Part shown: in pieces, positions 861 through 21,509 of the stretch
How the letters are laid out: each line of letters starts with the position of its first letter
How positions within the stretch are numbered: the first letter of the stretch is position 1
Source of the DNA: a virus
DNA: 29,871 nucleotides
Reading direction: 5' to 3' (one strand)
Virus record (IMG/VR): IMGVR_UViG_3300042397_002194
Coordinates: 1-29,871 of that record
Position numbers and translations under genes: made by a program
The notes under the pieces: model-generated
Seen by the model: only the letters and a program-made list of their open reading frames with translations
What the model was told of the DNA's origin: nothing
Database searches by the model: none

Positions 861-869
861 TATTTTATA
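861..869 (-). promoter_or_regulatory. Candidate T4-type late promoter for the 218-aa gene
   Basis: On the minus strand this reads TATAAAATA, one inserted A relative to the T4 late-promoter octamer TATAAATA. It overlaps the stop region of the collagen-like fibre gene and ends 19 nt before the ATG at 841. AT-rich sequence makes chance matches common, so this is tentative. Confidence 0.3.
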
Positions 870-3024
870 CTATGTTAATTGTATTTCCCATTGCTGAATG
901 AATAGAACATTGATAATACAATGTCGAAGGAGCATTCATAGGAACTGTAAATGTTGTAGTTCCTGTAGCACTTCCAGAAATCCCAGATGTATATGCGGCA
1001 CCGCCGTTACTAACCCTAATTAAAAACGGATGACTTGCTCCTGTAGTGTTAATAAAATTATAGGTAAATCCTTTATAAAGATATAATATAGGATCATCTG
1101 TGTTGCCTGTAACAATACCCGGGCCAGTAAATGTATAGGCAATGGTTCCGTTACTTGCTAACGACCATGTTATGCCTGCAAAAATTCCAGTTGCGCCGGT
1201 TGGACCAATTGCGCCAGTTGCGCCAACAGGGCCAGTAGCACCTTCGGCACCAGTGGCGCCGGTCGGGCCAGTAGCACCTCCTGGATCGCCTTGTGGTCCT
1301 GTTGCACCTTCAGGACCGCTGGCACCAGTTGCACCAGTTAGTCCAATTGCTCCAGTTGCTCCTTCGGGTCCTGTTGCACCTGTAGGTCCAGTGGGACCTA
1401 ATTCACCTGTTAAGTCAAATAACCAAGAACTATAGGTGCCAGTGCCTTCTGTTGTGATTGGGTTAAGTGTAAGATTTTTTCCTGCAAAACTTACAATTTG
1501 ACCGTAAATTGTTGCACTAGATCCTGCATAGGCATACACATAATTACCGCCCATAAATGCAGATTCAGATACCGCAGATTTATTTGTAACAAATGTTACA
1601 GTAGATGTTCCAATTTCAACTGTACTAGTTGATATTAGCCCTGCAAAACCAGGACCAGTTGCACCTTGTGGTCCAGTAGATCCAGTAGGTCCAATATCAC
1701 CAGTTCTTGCAAATGTTAAAATAAGTTCAGCTTGATCGTCAAATCTAAATACGCCGTCAACATGGGCACAATCTATTTTAAAATATCCATCTTCTTCAGT
1801 AATGGCGGTAATTGTAAAAATTGCAAACGTGCTAGGAACATTGGCGACGCCAATTCTAAAATGTCCCTTTAATGGACTAGTACTATCGTCGATAGTTCTT
1901 AAAAAACTTTGAAGGTCGACACCGTTGATATCTCGATCATCTACGTATAATGAAGTAGCGTCAGGCAATGTTTGATCATTAAATTTAACTCGACCGTTAC
2001 CCGGATCGTCGTCTGTTACTGCTGTACTAAATCTATAATTAACAGTTAGGCCGCCAAAACTTCCAGCTGGACCGGTTGAACCTTGAGGGCCAGTTGCACC
2101 AGTTCCGCCTCTAAGGCCAGTTGCACCAGTAGATCCGTTTACTCCCTGAATACCAGTAGCACCTGTAGCACCTGTGCTGCCTATTGGACCAGTTGCACCG
2201 CCCGGATCGCCTGCATCTCCTTTTGGTCCGGTAGCACCAGTAGATCCTAACGTACCAGTTGCACCTGTAGAACCTTGATAACCTTGTGCTCCAATCTCTC
2301 CTTGGGGACCGGTTGCTCCAGTAGTGCCGATTGTACCTTGAGAACCAACTAATGTAATAATCCAATCATTATAAGTTCCAGTATTACCAATTAATAATGG
2401 TCTTATTCTAAGTTGATTCCCTGTAAAACTTTCAATTAATCCGTCAATCAATGAAGTAAGACCCGAGCTAGAACTTGCAGTTGCTCTTACTCGAGAACTT
2501 ACGGTGTATGCCACAGTACTCGATGATACATTAGTAACAAATGTAACTGTCGAAAGACCGACAGTAATTAAACTTTGCGAATATAAAGGAGGAAATCCTA
2601 ATCCAGTTGCACCAAATCCTGTTGAACCAGGTTCTCCAGTTGCGCCTGTTGGGCCTGTAGCGCCTGTTGGTCCGGTTGCACCTGCGCCAGTTGCGCCTGG
2701 TAGACCAGTTGCACCGTTAAAGCCTGTTGCGCCAATTGGACCTGTTGATCCAGTTGATCCTTGCGGGCCATCCACTCCGTTTAATCCACTTTGACCGGTT
2801 GCGCCAATATTCCCTTGTGGACCAGTTGCACCAACACCAGTTGCACCAGTAGGACCAGTTGCACCAGTTAGACCAGTTGCACCAGTTGACCCTTGAGCTG
2901 CGGTTTGAAGTTGTGTTTTAAAGTTTCCAAACGTAAAGGCGTAATTTGTTCCGCTAGATAGCACCGGAAAAATAGTGTCATCCGTCGCACTAGTTAATGT
3001 TGTAAGTTGTGAAATTCTTGCCAT
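865..3024 (-). CDS. Collagen-like tail fibre with C-terminal cupredoxin domain (719 aa)
   Basis: A modular fibre. Residues 1-42 form a short head ([20 protein letters not shown]) of the kind that starts many phage collagen-like fibres, probably the attachment end. Gly-X-Y stretches (mostly [10 protein letters not shown]-type) occupy about 43-148, 230-328, 438-460 and 537-612 and should form a trimeric collagen-like stalk. Between them lie globular domains: about 150-232 and 463-543 are copies of one domain (both with STVTFVTN and GTY..W), and about 328-445 is a separate domain (NYRFST through ILTFARTGD) I associate with other phage fibres. The tip, about 613-719, is a cupredoxin-like beta-sandwich ([33 protein letters not shown]) with a possible type-1 copper set H665, C706, H709, M712. 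The start lies one base after the giant gene's stop; the Shine-Dalgarno (AGG) is weak. Host-receptor binding is inferred. Confidence 0.88.
1180..1412 (-). repeat. Collagen-like Gly-X-Y coding repeat, fourth segment
   Basis: The fibre gene encodes an unbroken Gly-X-Y series here (about residues 537-612), dominated by GAT, GPT, GPE and GAE triplets. At DNA level it is a degenerate 9-nt repeat (plus-strand forms such as ccagttgca and ccagtagca). It separates the second copy of the STVTFVTN domain from the cupredoxin tip. Confidence 0.9.
2050..2335 (-). repeat. Collagen-like Gly-X-Y coding repeat, second segment
   Basis: Gly-X-Y series of about 98 residues between the first STVTFVTN domain and the middle globular domain, including charged triplets ([13 protein letters not shown]) and a GPAG end. 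Charged and Pro-bearing triplets of this kind stabilise bacterial and phage collagen-like trimers. Confidence 0.9.
2590..2899 (-). repeat. Collagen-like Gly-X-Y coding repeat, first segment
   Basis: Gly-X-Y series of about 100 residues directly after the N-terminal attachment head, with three apparent one-residue breaks (GVGATG, GAGATG, GFGATG), which may introduce kinks in the stalk. Confidence 0.9.
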
Positions 3025-3025
3025 A

Positions 3026-6000
3026 TTATGAACCTATTAAAGGATCTCCTGTTTCGCTGTCTAACGTATCTCCAGACTCTAATACTAGATACTGATCTGT
3101 AGTTGTATTCTGACCATAGTAATATTTATCTGGTAGGAAAGATGGACATTCTAACAAGAATTTAACCTGTTCAATATTTCTAGTGTGTACATCACTGTAT
3201 TCAAATCCAATTTCTTGCGATATCGATTGAATTACTTTAAGTTCTGCACCAACTTGTGGTTGGAAATTAATAACAACCATACTTGTTGCTGTGTTAATAC
3301 TAAACTCTGGATTTAAAGTTACTATGCTAGATGTGCCTGCAGAATTAACATCTCCAGAATCGTAACCAATACTAACATCAGTAATTTTATAAGACGATGT
3401 TGTATTTTTTAGTGTTTTAACTCCGTTGTTAAACATTGATGTAAACGTATCAGAGATAGGTTTTCTCAATGTTCGACCTTGGTAAACAACTTCAACATGG
3501 TTATAGGCATTAACTATAGATCCAGTAAACACTACGTTTGTTAATGTAAACGTAGTATTAGTAGTACTGTTAATAGAAAATTTATCAACACGTTTATATT
3601 CAACTAAAGGAATATTTTGTGACGGACCTTGATCTAACACAATAGAACTTTCTTTGTGTAAAATTTTAACTCCAGTTCCGAGTGTTCCCCTACGTAACCA
3701 ACTTAATTTATTTCCTTCAAGTTTAAAGAATTCAATCCTTTCACCGTCAATCAAAATAACGCCTGGGCGATTTTTATCGTGGTTCGGAGGAGTAAGAACA
3801 CTCGAATCTTCAACAGTAATTGATGTATCAGTTGACAATAAATCTGCTGCTAATTGAGTAGAATTTTGCTGGCTAATACGTTTATAATGAGTTCTTCCTA
3901 AGTTGTCTTGGAAGATTCGATAACCAATTAATTTTTCACTTGTTTGGTCAACAACGCTCATGATGACTACTGTGTCAGTGTCACGCAGTTTAAATCTTTC
4001 ATTAAGTATTACAGTTCTGTTGTCGCTTTCGATTCTAAAATCAGCTTCTCTAGTAATAGGAAGGCCATTAATTTCTACCCAAACATATTCACTGCTTACC
4101 ACAGTTCTACTTAATTTAAAAATACCAGCATAGTTGCCTTTGTATCTTTCTCTTCTAAATAAACTGTTATCATGGTTGCTAAATGTAGTAACTTTAATAA
4201 CGCTTGAGGATGAAACATCAACTCTATTTGTCAACACCAAACGATTGTTAACTACATAGTAATCATGATCTCTAAGAATAGTAATTGCAACAACATCATT
4301 GTTAGTCAATCTTCCTTCAGAAAAATCAACTGAATTATTATCTTGATTTAATTTGATTTCTTGACTAAATGACTGTCGTACTCCATTAACATAGACTTCG
4401 AGCACTACTCTGTCAGGCAATCCTTGAGGATAATCAATGTGTTGATCTAACGAGAAACTTCTTACTCCGTTTGCAGCGGAATAATAAACGGTATCAGGCG
4501 GACTTAATCTAACTCCGTTTCTTTCAACAACTAGTTGACTATGGAACGGTTCTATATTTCCCGGTGGATAAGTTAGTGCAAAAGAAGTAGTTCCTGTAGT
4601 TGCAGAAATAATTTGCTCTTGCACTTCACTAAATGCTTTAGCATCACTGGCAAAGAACCAAACTTGTAACAAGTCTCCAATATTTAAATTACTAGCAAAC
4701 GTTATTTTAACTCTGCCAGATGTTCCTGATTTTAACGAGCCAGATAAAACATAGTCACTTCTCTTTATGCCGTTAACAGTTACGTAGGCACTATTAACAT
4801 CTGTATAATTAGAAGCAAAATCAAAAACTTTCTGGCCGCTAATATAGGTAATCGGTACAGATGCTTTTTCTAAGAAGTTTTTACCGCCAACACTCATAGT
4901 TGTGATAGATAACAATTCCGGATCCGGGTTTTGATTTTTAAATGGATCAAAACTACCCTGGCCTGCATACTGCCAGTTACCGCCATTACTGGTGCTATAA
5001 AATACGTGACTAGTATTATTTTGAATATTAGCATCATCTACTAAAATACCAGCTCCGGGAACACTACCAGAACGACCTAATGCAACTCCAGTAATGAATC
5101 CTTGGTCGCCGTTAAAGTTTGAACCTCTCCAAGCATTTTCATAAATCATTTCAATGTACTGATTTGTTCCGTCACTGTATAACGTGACTTCAAATTGATA
5201 AGCCGGTACTGTTGTAGCTGAAGTTCTTTGATTATAATGAGAACCTTGGAACCTTAGACGCCAGTACACAAAATTACCAATTTCACCGTTACTTAAGAAT
5301 AGACCAGGAGTTTCGCCAGTAGAAAGAGGAATATCTCTTAATCCGGTAGCCGAATTAATTCCATAGTCTTGCCATAGGTCGCAATACTCAATATATATTG
5401 CAGGATTGGTTAGGTAACCCAATAATAACGGAGTCCAATCACTTGAACCATCACCGAATGTTAAGTAACCGTTAGTTCCTACATATACTTGATCATACAA
5501 TGTTCCAAACATGTTCCAACTAAAGCCCAATGGGTAAGGCCCTGTAAAGGTGTCATCACCAGCCTGGCTAGCAATTACATTTCCTTGTCTACGAGGCAAC
5601 GCATTATTAGGACTAAAATACGGTCCACGAATACCTGCATACGGATCGTCTAAAAATACTATTTCATTAGTAAGATAATCAATTGTATAATCTGTTCCAT
5701 AGATCAACAGATCGTTGTTAAGTAGAACTTCTACAGACTGATTGTTAGGTGGAGTAAATCCAATTGGATATCTATTAGTGAACGCATCTTTGAAATACTT
5801 TTTATTGATCATCAAAGCAGCGCCGGACTTAGGATATGTATAAACGTTAATTCCTAAACTGTCAGATACTTTGCCTGGAAGATTCTCTTCTGGGCCGTAA
5901 CTGTTAGTTGTACTAATTAATTTGTCGCCGTCAATATTAATATCTTCTAAATCTTCTGATCTAGAAGGTACCCATTCATCGTTAACTAATTCTAAATAAC

Positions 6001-9000
6001 CTCCAGATATATATGTATCTAAATCTAAATCTACTATTGGTAAAGAGCCGTCACTATCTTCAGATCGGAACAAAATCCTATCTTCAATGTTATAAATTTG
6101 AGCAACTGAAATAGTACTTAAAAATCCAGTTCCTGTAAATGGGATAGTGTCTACTCTTACAAACTTATCTGACCCTGCTGTCTTTACATAGGTGTTGTAG
6201 TTAACATTTTGTGCTGGCACAAACGGCAACGAATACACCAACGGGTTCGGATTAACAAACGACAGCGAAGTTCCTGTTGCTACAAAAACTGGAGTATTAA
6301 GTGTTACTTTCCATCGAGATGCTGTTTGGTTTTCAATGTTAAAAGGCATTGCAGTAGACGATGTAACAGTATAGATAACTGTTGCAATTGTTACTGTGGA
6401 ATTAACTTTTAAATCAATGACGTTTTTATTATCAGGAATATCGAAGTATAAAATAGTACCTGCATTATTTGTTGTGTTTGCAGAAACTACAGTAGAAATT
6501 CGAGGACCTTTTGTTTCGTAGGATCCTAATTCTGGAACAAAATCATCCCAATTACTTTCACCAAACGGAGTTGAATCCCAACCCTTTGACACTTCAAAAG
6601 GCAAGGTATCGATTGTTACTCCTGGATATTCTAATCCATACATTAACATAGTAGCTGTATTACCAGGCATACCCGAAATAGGAGAATAGTAATCTCTAAT
6701 TCTATCAACTGCATGATACAAAGAATGATCTTTTTTATACTCTATCGATATGCTTGATAATTTTTTTGGTATTTCTTTTAACTGAAGTTTACCAAATAAT
6801 TTAGAATACCCATTAACTTTCTTAGAATATTTGATAAGGTTATAATCGCCTGATAATACACGAATACCGTTAACCTTAACTGTAACATTATTTTTATCTG
6901 GGTTAGGTGCCCATGTTAAATCAAATTCTCTACTAGATCCTGTAGCAATATAAGAATCATGTGCTAATGCAGAGGTAACTTCATTGTAGCCCGATACTCT
7001 ATCAAACTTCATTACAACTTTGTTTGATCGGACAACATCATTAGCCAATCTAGGGTAAACACGAGCTGCAATTAAATTTGTCGGGCCGCCTCCGATTAAA
7101 TTAACAATAGGAGTAGCAGTATATCCAGCTCCTGGATTAGTTACAACAATCTTAGAAATTTTTCCAAGTGCAATATAAGCAATTGCTTTGGCGCCGCTTC
7201 CTGTAGTATCTCCCGGTTGAGGTACAATCTCAACAATAGGAGGTATTTCATAACCAGACCCACCGCTGTATACATCAATAGATTCCACACGGTAGGTATA
7301 ATTACGGAGCCAGGATTTCCAAGGATTTCTATTAAGTTCAGGCCTGTTAAACGAAACAGGAATAAATCTTCCTTGGCTCGAACTGTATACTGACGGTAAA
7401 TCAAAGTCAGTTATAACAGTGTTTGACACATCAGTAGCGGTGTAACTATTTGTAAAATTCCTAATTTTAGTATGATACGGTTTAGTCTCATTAATATAAT
7501 CTTGATAATAAGATTCGTTGTTTAATTTATAAACAGGACGCTGATCTAACTCACCTGCATAATTGTAAACATTAATAAAAGAAGTTTTAAATGCCCAATC
7601 TAAAGATTTTTGTTCAGACATTGCATATTTTACAAGTTTAAAGAAAAGTTTGTTATAGTAAACTTTTAACTGTCCGACAAACACATCTTCAAAAATTCCA
7701 TAGATTATATTTTCAGTTTCTTTAGCAGGATTTTGATCGAATGACGTTTGATCCCATCCTGACACTTGATCCCATCCATATACTGATTCTGTATAATTCC
7801 AAATTGAATTATCTATTTTAATAGTTCCGTTTTCCTGATATATTAAATCGTACTTGTCATTAAACGATCCTACTCCAGAATTTTCAAATCGTCTTCTTAA
7901 AATAATATATCTTCCGTCACCACCGTTCCTGACTTTAATGTAATTTCCTCCAGGAATAGAATCTAATGCAGGAAGTTGATAAGGGGCATCTATTGTTGCA
8001 ATGATATCTTGAGAAGGATTGTAAGTGTCATCTATCCAATCAATATACTTCCAAAAATTTGTTGTGTCAAATGATTGTGTGTATTTTCTTAGGAAACTCT
8101 TATTTTCGTAATCCCATTCATATCTGCTCCATTTACCGTTAACTGTTTCATCAGTTCTTACAACTACACTAAAGGGTCTAACAGTTAATGTAGGAGTAAA
8201 AGTATAATTCTTACCAGAATTTACTATATTTGCGTTAACAATTTCTCCTACAATGTTGACTTCAGTTTGAATTATAGCGTCAGTACCGTCACCATCGATA
8301 TAAACCGTAGGGCCTACAAACGTATTAGATTCTTGATTAGATATAGATAATTTTTTGTTTAATGTTCCGAACCCAAAGCCCGGATTAACAATTCTTACAG
8401 AAATTATTCTTCCGTGTTGTACTTCACATGTTAGCTGTGCTTTTTTAAGATTTCTTGTTACAATAGAAAAATCTCTTTCAATTATATCTTCAACAACAAC
8501 ATCGTATGTTCCTAAAAATGAATTTGGTATTTCATCTTTAGATAAAAACTTATCTAAACTTACACTGTCAACAATATTATTTTTTTCTAAGATAGAATTA
8601 GAATATTCAACAAAAGTTCTTAACGCCGATATTCTATCTTTGAAAATACTTTGTCGAGGTCTAAATCCTACACCATATTTTTGTCTATCAGATAATAAAA
8701 TATCTGGTACAGGATTTCCTGTAGCATCAGTTCCTAATAAACTATCTATTAACTTTCTAATTAGTAGTGTAGTAGGAACACTAGCAGCATTTCCGTCTTG
8801 AAGTAATAGCCATTCAGTGTGAGCATTAGTTTCCTTGCCTGTTAAGTCTATATCTACAGAAAGATTTATATTTTTTCCATAGATAGAACTATCCATGTTA
8901 GTTAACATAACTGCATTATTTGCAATTATTGATACAAATTTTAAACCTTTAGATTTAGGATCTGCAATAGTTGAAGCAACATCATATGCACTTAGTCGTC

Positions 9001-12000
9001 TTGAAGTACCTAGAGGAACTGTTACCTTATTTTTTACCCAGTAATAATAAACATTACTAAATGAATTTGAAATAGGATCCCATACTTGTTTAATAGATAT
9101 GACCGAGTTATCTGAGAACTTAGGTTGTCCGCTGATACCTTCAGATAACCCCTCATTTGTATCAGCAATAGCACTCCATTGGCTTGGAAGTAGAGATGTT
9201 CTTACCCACTCATAAACATCAATCATAGACCCAGGAAATAAATTGTTCCAATTATTTCTTCTAAATTCTAATTCGCCTTGTTCATACCATAGATACTTGA
9301 CAGAACTTAAATCCCACCATAGTTCGCCTACGTGCTCGTCTAACCAGTTATTGTTTGTATTAGCAGCTACACCATTAACTCCTATAGAGTAAATTGCAGG
9401 ATCAAACAATGATTTAAAAGTTAACTCTTGGTCTGCAATACCTGAAATTTTTCCTTTAATAGGATCAATAATTTCTAAATAATCAACAACTGTTTCTTTA
9501 TCTGTATCAATAGTTTTAATAGATTTAATAAAGGATAGATCAATAAGTTCGCTTTCTTCTCTTAGAACTTTCCAACTACTTAAAGATGCAGATGTAGAGT
9601 TATAAAAATATAAAGCCCCTAATTGATTATTAGTCTGAGGTAGGCCTGGAGCTCCGATAATAACTCCTGTATTAGACACAAAAGAACTGTTACCGTAAAG
9701 TTGACCTGGAGTAGAAAGTTGATTAAACAACTCCTCGCCGAATACAAATTTATTTTTTTCTTTTACAAATGTAAACGCTGCTCCAGAATTTTTAATTACA
9801 GAATAAAATTGAGTAGTACCAGAATCAAACGTAGTAGATTCTCTCTGTTCACTTAATTCATCAAGAACATATTTTTCTTGTGTGTTATTTTGATTTCTAT
9901 ATGTATCAAATGACACATATGGTTTATGACTAGATCTTGCACTACCAATTACTAAAGTTTTGCCGTCGGGTGAAATATTGATGAGATTACCAAAATCAAA
10001 TCCATAATTAGAATAAGGGTTATCTATTACGTGATTTAATTTAAATCTATCTTCACTCCATTTCATTACAAAAACTTTTCCAGATTTTGTTGGACTATCA
10101 CTGGCACTGATAGCAGAAATAAACAGATACTCTCCGTCTCTGTCCATACAAATACTTTCAGCAAAACCAGAGCCGGGGCCTGCAAGACCATACAATTCTG
10201 GACTGTCTGAAGAAATATGTTGGATATTAGAATAACTATCGCCGATGTTCGATGTGTAGATATACACAGCACCAGTAGATGTAGACCAGCCCGGCGCTGC
10301 TACTGCAACACGACTACCTGTATAGTTACCCGATATTGCATGACCAAATCTACTATTAGCAGTTAACGGTGCAAGAGTTGTAGGTAATCTAGCATTAGAT
10401 ACTGCACTTGCAACTATTATTGCAGAAGTTGTACTAATTGTGTTGACAATATTATGATATACGGCCCCTTCATTTATTGAAGAACCATTTGATTCTGGGC
10501 TAGATACAAATACAACTTTTGAAGATGTTGATCTGTTGCCTAAATAGATACTGTGTCCAAAATGGCTGTCTGTTTCTGGTTGGGGACTGGAAAATACCAG
10601 TTCAAATACATCTTCGTTATTAGTAAAATCATATTTTACAATCTTAACCAAACCTTGATTTTCATAAGTCGAAGTAGTACCAATTACAGATACGGTGCTA
10701 AATTTATTAGACGATAATGTTTGTTTAATATATGATGCAGTAGGGGCACCTATATAGATATAATCATTGTCTTGGTCAAACTGAATTGACTTACCAAAAG
10801 ATGAGTTATTATCGCCAGTGAAATACTTTTCAATTTTAGAAGGATTCGGATTCAAAAATCCAGCAGATAAAATATCTGTTTTTAAATTGCCTTGTGTTTT
10901 GTAAACATATACTCTACCATAATCATCGGAAAGTCCACTATCAAAATAAAAGTTAGGAGAGGCAGTTATAAATTTAGAACCATCATCTGACCCTGCAATA
11001 CTAAAACCGTATTGCTGATTAGTTCCCAATGTGTAAGCTACATAAGGAGACTTAAACTCAAAAGAATTAAAGTTTTTAACTTTTTGGTATACTGACCATT
11101 TATTGTTTCCGTCATTGTCTACCCAGATTTTTTCATTTCTTGAAAATTTATCCAACGCTTCTGAAGATCTTATATCATCAAATTCATTAAATCTAACACT
11201 AACAAATTTAAAAAATAATCCTATTTGTGGATTAAAAGGAGTAGATAAAAACGATAAAGCTGAAGATACAGTGAACGAATTCAAAGACATTATGTCGTTG
11301 ACTCTGTATACTCCATCAATCTGAGAATCAAATTGACTGATACTGATTATGTCTCCTGATTGTAAATTATGCTTAAATTCTGTTGTAATTGTTAAACTTT
11401 CTCCAGGAACATCTACACTTGCATCAACTACTCGAGTAGGCATTTGAGTGTACCTAACAACATCCCAATCACCGTTAGGAGTGAAACCTATCCAAATAGT
11501 GTCACCTTCTTTTAGTGCCCTATTATTTGCAATGTCTAATAAACTTTCTCTATTAAATGCAGTAGCGGTAACATCGTCTAATCGTACATAACCTGCTGAC
11601 GGCAAAATAGATACACTGTCAGTAAGAACATTGTTTGATGTTTTAAAAGGCAGAGAATTATAATTCTTAGGTTTAATAACAATTTCATCATCAGTTTGGT
11701 AACTAATGAATTCACTAGCTACTACAGGTTCTGTGTCAACAAAATTAACTATCTGTGGATTTTCTTTAAATTTTAATTCATCTAGAGTAATTTCTAAAGT
11801 TTCGTTATTGGCAAAAGCTCCGAAATCTCCAACTCTAAAAGCCCAATCTTCATAATAATCAATAAATCCTCCCTGAGAGATAACACTAGCTTTTGCCAAT
11901 TTATTGATAGTATTTTTAGTTCCCTTTTCTTTAATATAACCTTGATAAAATTTATATTGACTAACGGAGTTTGTAAAAATATTAGTTAAATAATTTCTTG

Positions 12001-15000
12001 GACTATATCCGATGAGATGCTGTGCTAATTGTTGTTGATTAGAATCAAAATTATCAATATCTAAACTATAGAAATCTTCAAATTGATTAATTTTATAATC
12101 AAAGTTAGGCAACAGCTCTGCTACAGGTTTTTTACCCAACACAGTCCATTGATTGAAATTAAATTCTTCAGACCCTAATACTTTTAAGATTGCAGAGTAA
12201 TAATTACCTGCATAAAATACAACGGTGCCGATTGGATAGTCTGTATATTTTTCCCAATTAGAAATTTGAGCTTCGTCGTATAAAAATCCCGGACTGAATA
12301 TATCACCGTTCCATCCTGCTGTAATAAATCCTAGTAATTTGATTCTTCGTTGTCTGTAGCCTGTTTGAGGATCATATATGACATCGTTAAACAAGGAAGA
12401 ATTATTTAGAATAAGTGTGTGTTCTTTCTGAATTAAATTTATTCTAACAAAATAAATTCCGTCAGTTGTATTCACAGTTTTAATAGTGAAGATGCTTTCA
12501 TCTCTCGATGTAGAAATATTTTTACTAGATAACACAGTTCCGTCAGCTTTTAATACACTGTAATCATAAAAAATATTTGTTAAACTATCTGCAACAGCCG
12601 AAGTATCTTTAAATTTTAAAGAATTTGCAAAAGGACTTAGTGTAATAACTGCGCCAACAGCCCATTTCTGAGTGGTCCAATAAAGCATTTCTTTGGAGGA
12701 AAAAGTCCAATTTAATATTTCTGTTAAGTCTTTGTTATATTCATCAAACGTAAATCCGTGAGTTTGTAACCACTTTTCATAGCCTAATATTAAAGCATGA
12801 ATATCTTCTACATTAGAATATTCTGTTCCGTAAGGAACTTGAACTATTTTTTTACTAAATTTTGAAGGCAGTCTTACTGAGGTTCCTCCTATAATAGGAA
12901 GGCTTGGTAATAATTGAAATTTAGAAATATCAAATGTTGATCCTGAATTATGTCCAACTTTTGTTCTATAAAATCTTCCTAAATATCTAACAATCTGACC
13001 TTGTTTATAATACCTATATCCAGAGTTAGTGCTTACGGAAGTTGTGTCAAGTCCGGTTATAGGATTAACATTAGATGAAGCCCAATCTACGTAGGCCTCG
13101 TCTTTACCTCCAATTGTCATTGCTGGGTCAGTGGCTGTAAATTCGGGCATCAGACAAGTAAAATACGGATACTTAGTGTCATAACCCCTAACCGAATATC
13201 CTCTGTCAGTGCGTTCAACAATAATCCCGCTAACACCTAAACTCTTAACTGGGCTGCTCTTATCAAGAAAGACTTCATGATCCTCATCTACTAAAGATAC
13301 ACCCGAGTTAGAACTGTTAGGACTTACACTATCAATAATGATATTAAATTTAGACTTGTTAACAAACCCGCCAAGTTTGTGTGACAGTTTCATTGAAAGA
13401 AATTTAATTTCTTTCTTTAGTTCTTGCAAATATTGTTTATTTTTTTGATTACCTGTTTCAATAAGAAACACACTGTATCCCGCAGACAATATAGTTTGAT
13501 CATCTTCAATGTCTTGAAATAATTTTAAAACATCAAAGTTAAGAAATTCTTTATTTTCTCCGTAACCATATTGTCCTGCAAGATTTTTAGATATCCTACT
13601 TGTGTCAAATAACAAACTAGAATATGTTGCAGGATTAGTCAGTGCCATTAATAGTTGCACTGCAAACGGATAAAGAGAACTTTTCCTCCATGCAGATTCA
13701 ACAGGGCCGTTGTCTCCAAATTTCCAATTTTCGTTTGTTTTTAGATAATCGATCCCAGTAGCAATATTTGCTGCTGCGGGATCTAATAAAACTCCGTTGT
13801 CATCAACTGGAAGTATCTTAGAAAGACCTGTTCTAATATATTTTGAATTTACGGCAGGATTGTTAGGATCTCTTATATATCCTTTTTCAAGATCTTCCCA
13901 AAGGATTGTATTACCTCGAGTATACGGAGCAGGGCCATAAGTATCAACCCACCACTCTGGCATAATTGTAAATCCTAGCATCTCCCAAGGATGGGTATGA
14001 GGGCGGTCAGTATCAAAGAAGAATTTGTAAATTCCTCTCCAGTTACCAGGTAATGGTAATCTAGTAACTAAATCTTTACCTGATCTATAATTCCATGTTT
14101 TTCTATTTTCAGAAGTAGTAGTGTTATTAGAATAATTAAATCCGTAAAAACTATCCCACTTTAAAAATTCTCTAGATAAAATATCATTTACTTCTTTTAA
14201 TGTGAATTTGTTTTTCCTAAAAGCTCCAGGAAGAACATCTTGCATATTAAGTAATTCAGGATTATAATTTATTTTAATATTATTAAAAATTCTACGCTCA
14301 AATTCAAGAATAATATCATCTCGATAGTCGTTAAACGCTACCGTAATACTCCCGTCATGGCCTTGTATTACTTTTTGTGGTTCGCCCGAGTAAGTATCAT
14401 CGATATAAATTTTTGGTTCAAATTTTGGATATAACCCTAATTTAGTAGGGGTAGGAGGAATGAAACACCCTTCGGTGCTGGTGTAATCACTGATCGTTAT
14501 TGAATCACCTTTTTCTAAATCAATTTTAATATTGACAGAAGAGTCAATTGAATCAAATTCGTATTCAGATTCATGTAATAATTGAGAAACAGTTCCGTTT
14601 ATGTCAGTCCTATATACAATAACGGCTCTAAGAGATAGTTGATTAATATTAAAGGTAGAAGTTAAAGAATAATTTTTATTTCTACTATCAGTTACTGGAA
14701 ACGTTCGAGTAACAACATCTGTACCGTATGGAACCATGTCACTTAGAGAATAAGGGAAAGATTCTTCCTTGTTAACATTCATATTATACAACGCAATGTC
14801 TAAAGATTTTTGCGGAGTATATGTTCCTTTAAATTTAGTAATCTGGTCAATTAAGCCTAATTTAAATTGATTGTAATGTTGGGCAACAGATTTAATTGCA
14901 GTTAACAAATTGTATTTGTCATTAGCAATAAAATATGCTGCAAACGAAAGAGGATTTTTATTCGAAATTAATCTCTTACCGTATTTTGATAATCCGTCGA

Positions 15001-17365
15001 TATCTCTAATATTATTTGTACCTGGAAAGTTTCCAATAAAGTTAGGATGGCTATCGGCCATAGTCTTAACGTGATCAGACAATTCAGATAGTGTAAATTG
15101 AGATATCGGGCCGTTAAATGGATTGTTTGTAAATCCAAGTGATGTTTCATAGAACCCTTTATCGCTAGGTGTTCCGGTAGTTTTAATTTTTAAAAGAACT
15201 CGATCGCCGCTCGATAACTGCTGTTTAAAAACTACAAAATATCGTCTACCTGAAGGATATAATGTATATTCTTTATTGAGCGTTTTTTTATTATCGTTAA
15301 CAAAAACGTCAACTGTAAGTTGTTGATATCCTGCATTTTCAACTGACGTTATTTCTAATTGACTTAATGTCGATTCAACAATCTGATATTGAATAATAGG
15401 AATTTGATAATTTTCGGCAGGTGTCCAAACATTTAAAAATTGTGACGATCCTCTTTTTAAATTTTTTCTAATAAATCCGTTAGATACAGGAACTGAATAC
15501 GAATTGTTTCCGTCAACTACAAAATTAACGTCATTCATAAAATAGTTTTCAAACAGATAGTATGCTTGATTAGAAATATTTTTATATTTTAGAGGAAACC
15601 CTAATACAGGATCATTGTTTCCGTCCCCTATACTATATCCAAAAATTTTAGATCCTAAAAATATTTCTTTATATTTGCTCGAGCTGTAAGCAGTCGCATC
15701 ATTATCAAAAATTTCAAATCGAGGCGCTTGATTCAAAGCAGTCTTTTGTTGGCTAGACACCCACGAAGATCCGTTAAACCACCAGTTTTCTCCACGTTTA
15801 ATATTTCCTTTTGAGATGACAACAGAGTCACCTAATTGAGGTAATACATCATCTTCTTCGTCGAGACTAATTCTAAATTTTTCCCCAATTTTAACAAAAT
15901 TAACAATATAAGTTTTGTTATTAACAAAACTATCACGATCTGCGGTAAAGATAACTCGGTCACCTTGACCGATTTCTTCTCCATCAATATAGAATCCAAC
16001 TGCTCCTTCTACTGTAGAAAAAACATCATTTGTAACGGTATCTATGAATTGAACATTCTTCTTAGCAAATGATCCAAAATTATTAAGTTGTATATCTGCT
16101 TCAAACTCAACAATTGGTCGTTTTGCTCTGTTTGCAAAAGGTAACTCTACAGGAATTCCGTTAAGTTCTGCACTTAACTTAATAACATCTTCGTGGAACC
16201 ATCTATTATATCGGCTCCATGGATTTTTGTCTTGAGATGATTTATTAATAGTAATATATTCAGGAATTAACGGAAGGTTAATAGATTGATCAAACGCATA
16301 TTGATCAAATGTGTCACTATCAAATCTTTCATCAAAAACTGTAGAAAATCTTTCAGGTGCAACCAGTGAATTAAAATCAACAAGTTTAATTGCTGACCCC
16401 ACTCCTTCGACAATAAATTCTTTGTCTTTATAAGATTCAGGAGACACATCACCGACAAAATTAATTTTTAAGCCATTAGTAAGAACAATTCCTGAATAAG
16501 AAGTATAGTTACTTTTTCCTAAAATTTCTTTTTCAACGTCAATAACACTGTTCTCTTCGACGTTCTTGATTACAAACTCTCCTCCTTTTAAAATATTGTC
16601 TTCAGAAACATAATAAAGAGTCTTAGGAGTAGTATGATCAATCTTTAATGTAATAGTACCTTCTGAGATTCCATTATTTTCTGTCGCTCGATAAGGAGCT
16701 TCTTTTCCAGAAATTCTCGAAGTTTTAAACCAGAAAGTGCTATTACTTTTAACGTTAAATTTATAAGTAACTCCTCTATAAAGAGTAATCTGGGGTGCAG
16801 GAGTTAATCCATCAGGAGTAAACACAAAATTAAATCCGTCAGCTGTATCTGTTACATTATATGTGCTGACTATTTCTCTTTGCTGATTAGCAATAGAGAC
16901 TGAATTAGGGCCAGATGGCATCCAGTAATATTTTTCAAAGTTTACAAACTTGTCCCAATCAATATGCGGATCATAAGAATAAAATTCTGGAGATAACAAT
17001 CTATCTAATTTTGAAATGTTTGCACCTTCAAAATTTAATTGATTAATTAAATCATCATATGATGTGGCTTTGATAATTTTTAATATATCATTGGTAATAA
17101 CCAATGCAGGTTCAAGTTGATAATCTTGTCTTATTTTTAAATTGGATTCAATATAAAAATCTTTATTAGGATTAAACGTTGGAGTAACTTTACTACCGAC
17201 CCATCCGTCGAGTCTTTTTAACTGGGGAGGCTGTATTAACTGATCAATAGTGCCTGCTAAAAATTTACTATTCTTATTTGTTCTAAATAAAACTGGAAGA
17301 AGATCTACACTCTTTCTTGTTCCTGGCTCATTTTTATTCATCACCTGATTTAATTCATCAGACAT
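3026..17365 (-). CDS. Giant gp7-position baseplate/appendage protein (4779 aa)
   Basis: One uninterrupted frame of 4779 codons, roughly 525 kDa. It overlaps the gp6 stop by one base (TAATG) and has a strong AGGAG 7 nt upstream (17373-17377). In T4, gp7 (about 1000 aa) follows gp6; the N-terminal region here ([19 protein letters not shown] at about 38-56, then YQLEPALVI) resembles large marine phage proteins at this locus, sometimes labelled VrlC-like. By residue: about 175-265 cupredoxin-like domain without metal ligands; 974-1170 conserved block ([42 protein letters not shown]); 2110-2600 seven FG-GAP motifs, probably a beta-propeller; 2978-3065 and 3358-3428 Gly-Tyr repeats; about 3292 [10 protein letters not shown]; 3530-3615 conserved block with [10 protein letters not shown]; 3933-4140 nidogen-like domain ([18 protein letters not shown]); 4190-4480 tandem VNG sandwich repeats; 4533-4570 [13 protein letters not shown] and LRRGTLGTG. 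No membrane segment is seen. It probably forms the outer wedge and bears adhesin domains. Confidence 0.85.
9560..11040 (-). other. FG-GAP / integrin-like beta-propeller region of the giant protein
   Basis: Seven successive motifs of the FG-x-(S/A/L) type are visible, at about residues 2117 (YGFSIAG), 2188 (FGKSIQF), 2268 (FGHSIYL), 2340 (FGHAISG), 2402 (FAESICM), 2458 (FGNLINI) and 2557 (YGNSSFV). Most are followed some ten residues later by a (V/I)xxx(A/S)(P/A/S) strand (IYIGAP, VFVSSP, VAVAAP, LFISAI, LVIGSA, VIIGAP). Copies 1, 4, 5 and 7 also show a closing GxVYVYK, GAVYIYT, GKVFVMK or GALYFYN strand. The number and spacing suit a seven-bladed propeller with an insertion between motifs six and seven. 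Confidence 0.75.
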
Positions 17366-20300
17366 TAATATACTCCTAATGTGCTATTGATAATAGTTGC
17401 TGTGGTTTTAATTTGACTAGAAGTAATTGCATCTATTATTTCAATATCATTAACTGTTGCACCATTAATGAAAATTTCGTTATTTTGACATGCAATTTCA
17501 TATAGGCTTCCAAATGGTACATCTGATTTAGGAACAATGATAAAGTTAGTAATATCAGGTGTAAGTAAATTCATAATGTAGGTCGAAAGTTCACTAAAAT
17601 AAAATGTTTTACCAAATTCCCAATTTTCTAAAGCAAAAAATTGTTCGATTCCGGATAAAATTTTAGATTTTAATTCATTTTCAGTAGTTGATCTAGAAGC
17701 ATTTCTAACTGCCTTAAATGTAGCTTTTAAATTTCTACTGGCCTTATCGCCAAACAGTACTTTGTATTTTACTGGCTGATAAATCAATTGATCGCTAATT
17801 GATTTAATTGGCTCCAGTACTGTGCTATAATTTTCTTCTAATTCTGAACTTGTTGGGGCTAGAGGTTCTAATCCGTTTTGAGAAATTAACCAATTTCTAT
17901 AATTTCTATCATAGCTTTGCGTTAATATGTAGATATCAATAATATTTGTTTTACTAGGATCTAATCTTCTATCATCACCGCTGTTATGTTTGTAATGAAA
18001 TTTTAAATTTTTTCTTCCTGTTCTTGCAATATAATTTGGTTCAAATGTAAAAAATGATTCGGTAGAAGTAGAATATCTTTTTACAACTTCAATAGACTTA
18101 TCGTAGAAATAATACAAATTACCTTCTACAGGGTTATTTTGAATTGCATCGGCTTCGGTCGGAAATGCTGTTATAGTTTCATCAGTTAGATAATATGTTA
18201 AGTCATTATTTGATTTTTTAAAATAAACAAATTTATCTTTAAATCCAGTTTGAGCACTAAAGGAGAACGGTGCTACAATATTTAAAAATGAATCGGGATT
18301 TTCAATCTGACTGTCTTCGTACTCATCAAGGAACGAAACTTTAATTTTTCTAGGCTCGATATACCCATCTGACTCAACAATGTTACTATCAATCTGCCAG
18401 CCGTAATCTATTCCAAGTGGTAAGGAAGAAAACTGTGCTTCAGAGGTTGATACCGAAACAACAGAAGTTAGTGTATTATATCCTGTTCCAGAATTTACAA
18501 TTATAATACTGTCAATTTCTCCGTTCTTTATTATAGGATAAAAGCTACCGTTGCTTCCAACAGTTACATTAATAATAGGTGTTGAGACGTATCCCTTTCC
18601 TCTATTAATCACTGTTAGCCCTCTAACTGATCCGTTGGTTCCGGTACTGGTCAGTTCTATTATTGAATTTCCGTAGTTAACAGGTGCTTCATTTGTTCCA
18701 AGTACTGTAATTTGGTCCTTCACTAGAGTATTCTTTACGAAGTCATAATTTTTATTTGTACTATCAAAATAGAAAGAAGTATCTTGCTCGCTTTCAAAAA
18801 TATAATCTGTAATCCTATACTTTACATCATATCCTATACCGTTCCATGTAAATGCAAATAGCCAACTAGAATCTTTATTTGTATTTGACGAATCCTTTTG
18901 ATAAGTCAATGTGAAGGGGCCTGTTACATCAATGTCAGTGTCATTAATGATATACCAACTTCTTGTATTTTCTGCAAAACTTAATCCAAAATTTCTCTTG
19001 GCTAGACAAAGGTTAACAATATCCGTTTGTAATGTGTAGCTAAAAACATTATCAAACGGCGGAATTATTTCTGTTGCAATTGCACCAGTAGGAACATTTT
19101 GAGTAACTATGATTGGTCCTGAACCATCAGGCAAATTGCCCTGGCCGCCATAAGATCCGTCACCTATGACTAATACCGCTTTAACCCATTTGAAATTTTT
19201 TGTCTTTGAATCTGCTGTAGTTGTTAAATTTCCATTAGGTAAAAAATAATTACCCGTTGGTGGTACAAATTTAATTAACGAGTTTGGTTCTAAATATCCT
19301 AGATTACCTGCTGAAAATATTCCTGTAGATAAAGGGAAACCTGTAACTTTATCTACAAAATACCCTGTGGTTTGATTTGTACTCTTTGTTGATTGATTCC
19401 ACACAACTGGCGGATCAGTTAAAGCAGGACGCGGCCAGTAATTTAAATAAAAATTATTCATACTTTTTGATTCTGTAATAGGAAGAAGTTTATTAATTAC
19501 AGTTGCAAAAATTTCATTTTTATTTGAATAAGAGAATTGAAAGTTTAAAATTTTATCTTCTTGATAAAGAGCGCCATCGTTTCCAAAAATATTAGTACTT
19601 GAATATTTTCCGCTAACATCACTAAGTTCATAATATTTAGAAATACCACTAGAAACTCTGTTAATGCTTTTAATTTTAACAATGTCAGCACCAGCAGTTA
19701 GTGGAGCAATATTGTAATCTTCAGCAGTGATCATCCTATTTTGAGTGTAATAGGATTGTGGTGCTTTCAGTCTTATATTGTCATCGCTTTCTGCAGATTC
19801 ACTATTATTGACAGTGTATTGTAAACTGAAAGTCAATGTCAGTTGATGTTTTTGACCAATTTTATTGAAATACGGTAAATTAATTTGTACACCGTTAATC
19901 TGCTCGGGCTTGATAGAATATTTTAAACCGTTACTCTGTCTATAGAATAATACGAATTGACCTTTAGGTAAATTACCAAACAGGCCGTCTGCAAAATTTA
20001 AATCAATTTGATCGTTTTCTCTTGTAGTAATTGCAAAAATATTTCGTTCTTGGTTAGATAAGCTGTTATAAATTACGTTGTTACCTGTAAGAGCTGGAAT
20101 TTTTTTCCAATTACTAGAATAATTTCCGCTAACATCAAGCTGCCATAGCCATACGTCAGAGTCATTAATATCAGTGGCATTTATTCCAACAATCTCATTT
20201 GGAACAGGTGCATCAATATTGAAAGTAGTTAAATTTAATGTGCCTTGGCGGAAATGCACAAAGAATCCAGTATTTGCACTTCCACTTCCTTTGTTGTCAT

Positions 20301-21021
20301 TCCTAAAAATAAAACTAAACTGATCTGCCGGACGTGGTACAGATTCGTAAATAACAGTATTTTTTGTAAATTCGCATCCGGTAATTTCAAAAGGCATTGA
20401 AATTCCGCCAATGGTTTTACTGAAACTAAAAATAGGAACATCTGTATTAGCGGTGTCAATTTTGTATTGTTCTGTATCAATGCCGCCAATAACTTTTTTA
20501 TCGTACGGCCTTCCAAATGTTAGACTTCCGGGCATCGCACTGTTTAATATGGTAATAAATTGTTGATACCAATTACTATTACTAGTGTCGTTCCAAGCAA
20601 CTACTGTGTTGGCAAGATTGCTTCCGTTAGCATCAAATACATTGTCCGTAGTTGATAGTGCTGTTAATTTTAAAAAGCCGTTAGCAGGTTGATTTCGTTT
20701 TGCATTGTAATTAATCAACTGTGCAAGACGCAGAATGCTGTCACGACGTTGTGCAGTTTCTAAAAAGTTTTCACGTGCATTTAAATCAACACGGAAACTT
20801 AAATTCTGACCTAAGAAGGCAATTAAATCTATAAGAGCAATGTACTCACTTGATTCTAGATAATCATTAAAGTCTTCGGGGTATTTTTCTCGGAGGTAAG
20901 AAATCATAGTTCTTCGAAGTGTTTCGAAGTCGTAAGATTTAAAATCAGAATTTTTAAATGACTGATATACCTTTTTCCAATCTTCTGCTACAAGCAATTT
21001 CGAGTTGGTTGACGGGATCAT
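17365..21021 (-). CDS. 6: Baseplate wedge protein gp6 (1218 aa)
   Basis: T4 gp6 family, the core wedge protein whose dimers form the continuous baseplate ring. The N-terminal region (residues about 12-115) has the familiar pattern FETLRRTMISYLREKYPEDF, ALIDLIAFLGQNLSFRVD and ARENFLETAQRRDSILRLAQ. The C-terminal region (about 1110-1218) is also typical: a helical NELKSKILSGIEQFF, then ENWEFGKTFYFSEL, FIIVPKSD and FGSLYEIACQNNEIFINGA. The protein is nearly twice the length of T4 gp6 (about 660 aa). Part of the extra length is a Gly-Tyr repeat pair at about 794-857 (VINRGKGYVSTPIINV and IIVNSGTGYNTL) that recurs in the giant neighbour. AAGG lies 10 nt before the ATG. The gene stop overlaps the ATG of the giant gene, so expression of the two is probably coupled. 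Confidence 0.93.
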   Translation of the reverse strand: MIPSTNSKLLVAEDWKKVYQSFKNSDFKSYDFETLRRTMISYLREKYPEDFNDYLESSEYIALIDLIAFLGQNLSFRVDLNARENFLETAQRRDSILRLAQLINYNAKRNQPANGFLKLTALSTTDNVFDANGSNLANTVVAWNDTSNSNWYQQFITILNSAMPGSLTFGRPYDKKVIGGIDTEQYKIDTANTDVPIFSFSKTIGGISMPFEITGCEFTKNTVIYESVPRPADQFSFIFRNDNKGSGSANTGFFVHFRQGTLNLTTFNIDAPVPNEIVGINATDINDSDVWLWQLDVSGNYSSNWKKIPALTGNNVIYNSLSNQERNIFAITTRENDQIDLNFADGLFGNLPKGQFVLFYRQSNGLKYSIKPEQINGVQINLPYFNKIGQKHQLTLTFSLQYTVNNSESAESDDNIRLKAPQSYYTQNRMITAEDYNIAPLTAGADIVKIKSINRVSSGISKYYELSDVSGKYSSTNIFGNDGALYQEDKILNFQFSYSNKNEIFATVINKLLPITESKSMNNFYLNYWPRPALTDPPVVWNQSTKSTNQTTGYFVDKVTGFPLSTGIFSAGNLGYLEPNSLIKFVPPTGNYFLPNGNLTTTADSKTKNFKWVKAVLVIGDGSYGGQGNLPDGSGPIIVTQNVPTGAIATEIIPPFDNVFSYTLQTDIVNLCLAKRNFGLSFAENTRSWYIINDTDIDVTGPFTLTYQKDSSNTNKDSSWLFAFTWNGIGYDVKYRITDYIFESEQDTSFYFDSTNKNYDFVKNTLVKDQITVLGTNEAPVNYGNSIIELTSTGTNGSVRGLTVINRGKGYVSTPIINVTVGSNGSFYPIIKNGEIDSIIIVNSGTGYNTLTSVVSVSTSEAQFSSLPLGIDYGWQIDSNIVESDGYIEPRKIKVSFLDEYEDSQIENPDSFLNIVAPFSFSAQTGFKDKFVYFKKSNNDLTYYLTDETITAFPTEADAIQNNPVEGNLYYFYDKSIEVVKRYSTSTESFFTFEPNYIARTGRKNLKFHYKHNSGDDRRLDPSKTNIIDIYILTQSYDRNYRNWLISQNGLEPLAPTSSELEENYSTVLEPIKSISDQLIYQPVKYKVLFGDKASRNLKATFKAVRNASRSTTENELKSKILSGIEQFFALENWEFGKTFYFSELSTYIMNLLTPDITNFIIVPKSDVPFGSLYEIACQNNEIFINGATVNDIEIIDAITSSQIKTTATIINSTLGVY

Positions 21022-21056: not shown

Positions 21057-21076
21057 AATTAACCGAGTAGTTAATT
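21057..21076 (-). terminator. Weak hairpin just after gp25
   Basis: A perfect 7-bp inverted repeat AATTAAC / GTTAATT flanks a 6-nt loop and overlaps the last two bases of the gp25 stop codon. In the transcribed strand it is followed by TTTAGC rather than a proper U-tract, and the stem is AT-rich, so it is a poor intrinsic terminator. It could instead mark or protect an mRNA end upstream of the gp6 promoter candidate. Confidence 0.25.
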
Positions 21077-21509
21077 AGCTTGCCAACCCTACTCTTTTAT
21101 CAAAAGATAAAATCATACTGTCACTGACGTCAGTACCTTGATAGGTCAATGTGATTTCAATAAGAAAACCGTAGTCTTGTTCGACAATGTTTACTAGAGT
21201 AGGAATTACTCTAGGATCAGAATTTAATATCCTGTCAATGTCTGACGAAATTTGTTGTTTAACGTTAGGAGTTAATGGCTCGTATATAAGGTCCCATATT
21301 ATAGAACCAAATGCGGGATTCATTACTCGTTCTCCCTTCCTTACGTTAAATTGATTTAATATATCTTGTTTAATTAATTCAAAATCATAAAGTTTTATAT
21401 TAGTAGAATTTTCGTCTACTGTACTAAATCCTCTATAAAATTGACTACGTTGATTAGTAGTAACATTGTTTACATTAGGAGGAGTGATAACTGTGTTTTT
21501 ATAAGCCAT
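21075..21509 (-). CDS. 25: Baseplate wedge protein gp25 (144 aa)
   Basis: gp25/GPW family (called lysozyme-like in older annotation, though the T4 protein is structural and not needed as an enzyme). Landmarks are LYDFELIKQDILNQF, the conserved core RKGERVMNPAFGSIIWDLIY, EPLTPNVKQQI, then RILNSDPRVIPTL and a C-terminal strand pair IEITLTY and MILSFDKRVG. The length is close to T4 gp25 (132 aa), with a longer N-terminus. In T4, gp25 joins the gp6 ring to the sheath and starts the contraction lattice. It lies 16 nt after the gp5 stop and 53 nt before gp6, the usual gene order. The short gap to gp5 contains no Shine-Dalgarno, so translation may depend on reinitiation after gp5. The first ATG in frame was kept because the conserved region starts well downstream. 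Confidence 0.95.
   Translation of the reverse strand: MAYKNTVITPPNVNNVTTNQRSQFYRGFSTVDENSTNIKLYDFELIKQDILNQFNVRKGERVMNPAFGSIIWDLIYEPLTPNVKQQISSDIDRILNSDPRVIPTLVNIVEQDYGFLIEITLTYQGTDVSDSMILSFDKRVGLAS

Follow-up and report, generated by a model that had tools for sequence, protein, structure and literature searches.

Genomic context of the giant gene

The window, that is, the whole stretch of DNA analysed here, is a 29.9-kb viral contig in which a giant virion protein is encoded among genes for baseplate components:

865..3024, minus strand: collagen-repeat tail fibre, directly downstream of the giant gene (Pfam Collagen)
3026..17365, minus strand: giant virion protein of 4,779 aa carrying the propeller, a single ORF (PHROG 10938, virion structural protein, E 0)
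17365..21021, minus strand: gp6-like baseplate wedge subunit, directly upstream of the giant gene (PHROG 10646, E 7e-283)
21075..21509, minus strand: gp25-like baseplate wedge subunit (Pfam GPW_gp25, 3.8e-9)
21526..23865, minus strand: gp5-like hub/tail lysozyme with a GH19-like domain

Genes for gp53-like, gp5-like hub/lysozyme, gp25-like and gp6-like wedge proteins lie upstream of the giant gene, and the collagen-repeat fibre downstream of it (865..3024) contains a gp10-like 'baseplate wedge tail fiber connector' domain (PHROG 677, 2.6e-37). The order of these neighbours supports the baseplate setting proposed in the first-pass annotation of this DNA, with the giant gene adjoining gp6 in a T4-like baseplate operon. 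Its position after gp6 and before a gp10-like fibre suggests that the giant protein occupies the place of T4 gp7, which likewise follows directly after gp6, though the protein described here is more than four times larger. In T4, gp7 is a peripheral wedge protein (PMC3004832). Homology of the scaffold to T4 gp7 was unsupported, as a sequence search of the scaffold against the PDB gave no match and Foldseek of a 916-aa scaffold piece returned weak partial matches with no baseplate protein among them. It is thus the gene order that places the giant protein in the baseplate, since the scaffold model matched neither gp7 nor other baseplate proteins convincingly.

Homologues of the giant protein are structural proteins of 3.3-4.6 kaa in the jumbo myophages 121Q, RaK2, GAP32, PA5oct, Atu_ph07, Phosso and SCTP-2, and the annotation of the PA5oct homologue states that it was seen by ESI-MS/MS. 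The GH19 chitinase/endolysin-like domain of the gp5-like hub (window 21526-23865) is a probable tail lysozyme.

A predicted seven-bladed propeller of the FG-GAP_2 type

The following features were assigned within the giant gene:

9578..11080, minus strand: inserted FG-GAP seven-bladed propeller, residues 2096-2596, 501 aa (AlphaFold2, Foldseek, profile against PDB, site mapping)
10853..11011, minus strand: blade 1, YGFS at residue 2119 (motif and four AlphaFold2 strands)
10589..10798, minus strand: blade 2, FGKS at residue 2190 (motif and AlphaFold2 strands)
10412..10561, minus strand: blade 3, FGHS at residue 2269 (motif and AlphaFold2 strands)
10211..10348, minus strand: blade 4, FGHA at residue 2340 (motif and AlphaFold2 strands)
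10022..10165, minus strand: blade 5, degenerate motif GFAES (motif, AlphaFold2 strands, hhalign)
9728..10000, minus strand: blade 6, FGNL, with a long B-C loop bearing the conserved TTFDxxxTxF (motif, alignment, AlphaFold2)
9557..9697, minus strand: blade 7, YGNS...IIGAPG (motif and AlphaFold2 strands)

The first-pass annotation had placed an integrin-like propeller at 9560-11040, limits that are refined here to 9578-11080, from seven FG motifs spaced by about 56-100 residues, with GAP-like strands and GxVYxY closures. This layout was borne out by the motif positions and by shuffling. The seven FG-like motifs stand at residues 2119, 2190, 2269, 2340, ~2402 (GF), ~2458 and 2557, with spacings of 71, 79, 71, 62, 56 and 99 residues; a GAP-like strand comes after several of them (ITASP, YIGAP, FVSSP, VAAPG, IIGAPG), and several repeats are closed by G-x-V-Y-x-Y (GRVYVYK, GAVYIY). 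FGx[SA] occurs six times in the 501-aa segment, against nine times in the remaining 4,278 aa of the giant protein and a shuffle mean of 1.5 (P 0.004), while the full FG..GAP pattern was observed five times (two overlapping) against a shuffle mean of 0.05, a number reached in 0 of 5,000 shuffles. When the blades were compared with one another as hhalign profiles, all 21 pairs beat the best of 128 column-shuffled controls.

The AlphaFold2 model of the propeller (pLDDT 85.4, pTM 0.85) contains 28 strands in seven groups of four, the scaffold strand WKVLRE serving as the fourth strand of blade 7. Against the PDB, the best 50 Foldseek matches of the model were all integrin alpha chains (E 1e-13 to 8e-11, top probability 1.00), at ~14% identity and with TM-scores of roughly 0.5-0.66 when the better-fitting normalisation is taken. 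As a single sequence the segment gave near-empty searches against Pfam, the PDB and in tblastn, and scored 14.8 bits with Pfam FG-GAP, below the curated cut-off of 23. A search of IMG/VR that used the conserved C-side flank as bait yielded homologous propellers, of which 56 were aligned. The profile of these 56 sequences matched integrin alpha-4 in the PDB at 1.2e-15, nearly all the other significant matches being integrin alpha as well; 44 of the 56 homologues matched Pfam FG-GAP_2 (PF14312; E up to 0.01, best 1.7e-13), and the L069 propeller reached 42 bits against FG-GAP_2/FG-GAP (cut-off 23). Since the match appeared only with family profiles, the reading of the motifs went beyond what a single-sequence search shows. 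A fold other than a propeller, or a lack of FG-GAP matches for most motifs, was looked for and neither was found: the predicted fold is seven-bladed, its top matches are integrins, and most motifs match at the family level.

The term 'integrin-like' holds for the fold and fails for the calcium loops, as the integrin DxDxDG motif occurred in none of the 56 members, whose A-B loops (median 5 residues) are too short for it. Together with the score of the window sequence below the Pfam cut-off, this points to an FG-GAP_2-like protein, and we describe the segment as a modelled FG-GAP_2-type seven-bladed beta-propeller with the integrin-alpha fold, not as an integrin.

Some members carry further domains. 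In L053:4616-7144 a domain of ~120 aa (STRxEVI...YYGEETILNWM...IRYWMLNGLAGFAQSVID), for which no Pfam match was obtained, appears twice, in the C-D regions of blades 3 and 5, and L032:4940-7162 and L069:4856-7159 have an extra ~90-aa domain (SNITLSETVTNIGNTIIVNFHTDV...) between blades 6 and 7.

Insertion in the turn of a predicted beta-hairpin

The propeller is flanked by the following elements:

11186..13018, minus strand: N-side conserved scaffold block, residues 1450-2060 (alignment A2)
11081..11101, minus strand: N-terminal arm of the host beta-hairpin, KWSVYQK (W-x-V-Y arm conserved with and without propeller)
9539..9577, minus strand: C-terminal arm of the host beta-hairpin (alignments, L289 model)
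8531..9577, minus strand: C-side conserved scaffold block, residues 2597-2945 (alignment A1)

The earlier proposal that the propeller is inserted between conserved scaffold blocks was confirmed and could be sharpened to the turn of one beta-hairpin. Homology to the 121Q protein ends at residue 2052 and restarts at 2629, leaving a gap of 56 residues in 121Q against 577 here. In many propeller-less relatives a W-x-V-Y arm is followed by a short turn and then by a W-x-x-x-R arm. Alignment A7 gives this turn a length of 2-4 residues in most propeller-less relatives (26 at the most), against 393-537 in the propeller-bearing proteins. In the AlphaFold2 model of one propeller-less relative, L289 (whole model pLDDT 77, pTM 0.61), DSSP assigns strands at 573-578 and 581-587 on either side of a two-residue turn, with a local pLDDT of ~90. 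GAP32-like and 121Q-like proteins have arms that are harder to recognise.

Distribution and origin

Among the matches listed, 153 of 199 distinct homologues carry the propeller and 46 do not, in a sample that is not unbiased, each scan having retained its best 80 matches. In a FastTree phylogeny of the flanks (200 rows among the matches listed) the presence and absence of the propeller required two label changes, against a mean of 42 for shuffled labels. The propeller rows form one clade of 155 tips with support 100, in which L223 is the sole propeller-less row among the matches listed. One gain early in the clade and one loss constitute the simplest account on this midpoint-rooted tree. In L223:5084-7903 the hairpin turn still holds ~26-32 residues, and the propeller was probably lost secondarily.

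No isolate with a propeller at the hairpin site was found in the phage collection. One scan of genome contigs yielded no bacterial source of the propeller; its single search pattern was taken from the scaffold, outside the propeller, so that this negative says little.

Sequence divergence and loop variation

No other region of the giant protein is as poorly conserved as the propeller. Between close relatives its identity is 40-64%, compared with 64-81% in the adjoining scaffold, and for the other relatives the median identity is 28% versus 54% in both adjoining blocks. For the propeller most dN/dS values fall at 0.05-0.3, compared with 0.02-0.08 for the C-side scaffold; being well below 1, they gave no sign of positive selection on the propeller. 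The propeller is thus retained under purifying selection and changes faster than the rest of the protein.

Variation in length is concentrated in two classes of loops. Among 56 members the B-C and D-A loops have median lengths of 11 and 13 residues (SD 4.9 and 2.4), and the A-B and C-D loops of 5 and 4 (SD 1.0 and 1.2). The long variable B-C and D-A loops share one face of the propeller, the face on which integrins and many other propellers usually bind their ligands. Invariant or nearly invariant columns of the family alignment are almost all Gly, Pro, Ala, Phe, Trp or Val, and no conserved acidic or basic cluster was found in it beyond the TFD motif.

Possible functions of the propeller

From the computed fold, site, clade, rate and loop pattern, we propose that the propeller most likely helps the phage to touch its host, probably as a sticky add-on, and as candidate function we lean towards adhesion or first-contact recognition of a ligand on or around the host. 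The propeller would have been inserted once, early in one jumbo-myophage clade, into the two-residue hairpin turn of a giant baseplate-wedge protein. Its two ends should be near each other because a propeller closes on itself, and it might therefore hang from the hairpin and leave the scaffold undisturbed. We infer that it is exposed at the baseplate periphery, where its variable face may bind a host-side ligand (polysaccharide, surface protein or matrix) and could add adhesion or first-contact recognition to that of the tail fibres. The chain enters and exits on the D-A side, so that part of the variable face may point at the scaffold.

The main alternative, which we consider possible but rather doubtful, is that the propeller serves as a rigid-disc spacer or assembly module contacting wedge, sheath or fibre proteins, for instance as a docking site for a fibre, and binds no ligand of the host. 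Contacts between proteins are a frequent task of propellers, and retention in almost every member of the clade, with a single loss and under purifying selection, is what would be expected of a part of the particle; the conserved TTFD loop of blade 6 also fits such a module. Fast evolution and loop variation are also compatible with a structural module under loose constraint. A purely structural role is harder to reconcile with the fact that the least conserved part of the giant protein bears its long variable loops on one face, that whole extra domains lie between blades in some members, and that related phages manage without a propeller.

A propeller of the glycosidase or lyase type, degrading surface polysaccharide, appears highly improbable. 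Depolymerases are common among phage receptor-binding parts and some relatives have CBM5/12-like modules in this region, but the residues conserved in the family, as given above, include no acidic or basic cluster beyond the TFD motif, and the fold matches in the PDB are integrins, not enzymes. That there is no propeller, and the motifs are a chance FG-like run in a generic beta-rich phage protein, could draw on the score of the window sequence below the Pfam FG-GAP cut-off, but it is refuted by structure prediction and the FG-GAP_2 and integrin profile matches, together with Foldseek, the blade comparisons and the shuffles, and has a negligible chance of being correct.

Adhesion or first-contact recognition remains the reading that we favour. 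A bolder version of it, which we regard as unlikely, would make the propeller an integrin-like contact sensor located in the wedge rather than in a fibre, the docking of whose variable face could be coupled directly to the switch of the baseplate from the resting to the contracting state, with the inter-blade loops providing a second layer of exchangeable binding domains.

Relation to known systems

The closest known counterparts are the FG-GAP_2 (PF14312) proteins of bacteria and giant viruses, which share the short A-B hairpin and the FG...GAP...GxVYxY layout; here, however, the propeller lies as an insert inside a phage baseplate-operon protein, and the copy in the window has diverged so far that by itself it stays below the cut-off. 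The integrin alpha propeller, with seven four-stranded FG-GAP blades, is the best PDB match in both fold and profile, but the propeller described here differs from it by the missing DxDxDG loops, by the ~14% identity and by having no known integrin beta partner; to our knowledge, none is to be expected in a phage.

Viral fold matches in BFVD included giant-virus FG-GAP proteins, an FG-GAP protein of an uncultured Caudovirales, the 'hemagglutinin' of Atu_ph07 and a virion protein of cyanophage S-TIM5. FG-GAP/integrin-like phage proteins have a published precedent in gp213, the 'hemagglutinin' of Sinorhizobium jumbo phage AP-J-162, reported to have an FG-GAP or human-integrin-like fold (PMC11242549). 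This gp213 and its Atu_ph07 relative (A0A2L0UZX4) come from a related jumbo phage group, but are separate small proteins of 375-394 aa, not embedded in a giant baseplate protein; the giant baseplate proteins of Atu_ph07 and Phosso are without propeller. Those of 121Q, RaK2, GAP32, PA5oct and SCTP-2 (PHROG 10938) are homologous in the scaffold before and after the site and have no propeller, a short turn closing the hairpin where this is recognisable.

Our literature search found no paper combining FG-GAP, bacteriophage and propeller, and no PHROG family covers the propeller segment. What is new, as far as our tools show, is a propeller that sits in the hairpin turn of a core protein of the baseplate operon across a large environmental clade, with empty sites in relatives. 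A predicted integrin-fold, adhesion-type propeller cleanly grafted into the core of the operon in a widespread clade of environmental jumbo phages, with relatives that retain the empty site, offers a test case for the gain of host-contact domains without disturbing the injection machine. It would also represent a candidate host-recognition domain that is not part of the tail fibres and lies in a place that annotation pipelines do not search.

Other modules in giant phage proteins

Many FG-GAP repeats were also seen in L330 (Sinorhizobium phage Phosso gp108, 3,692 aa), a giant gene different from the baseplate one. Propeller-less relatives (L187:4559-6985, L193:4787-7015 and L197:4329-5096) have CBM5/12 (chitin-binding-like) modules in the corresponding part of the giant protein, and a weak CBM5/12 signal is present at residues 1453-1474 of the window protein. 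Just upstream of the hairpin, an insert of LamG appearance by eye, which gave no Pfam match, occurs in L004 (SCTP-2, residues ~2120-2350) and L091:5822-7105. In the propeller-less scaffold model the best local fold matches, although weak, were ubiquitin E1 enzymes. The piece just before the hairpin (window ~11186-11420, residues ~1985-2060) has the pattern HxLxxGDIIxI...GxYxV...FxV, which by eye resembles the FCCH domain of these enzymes.
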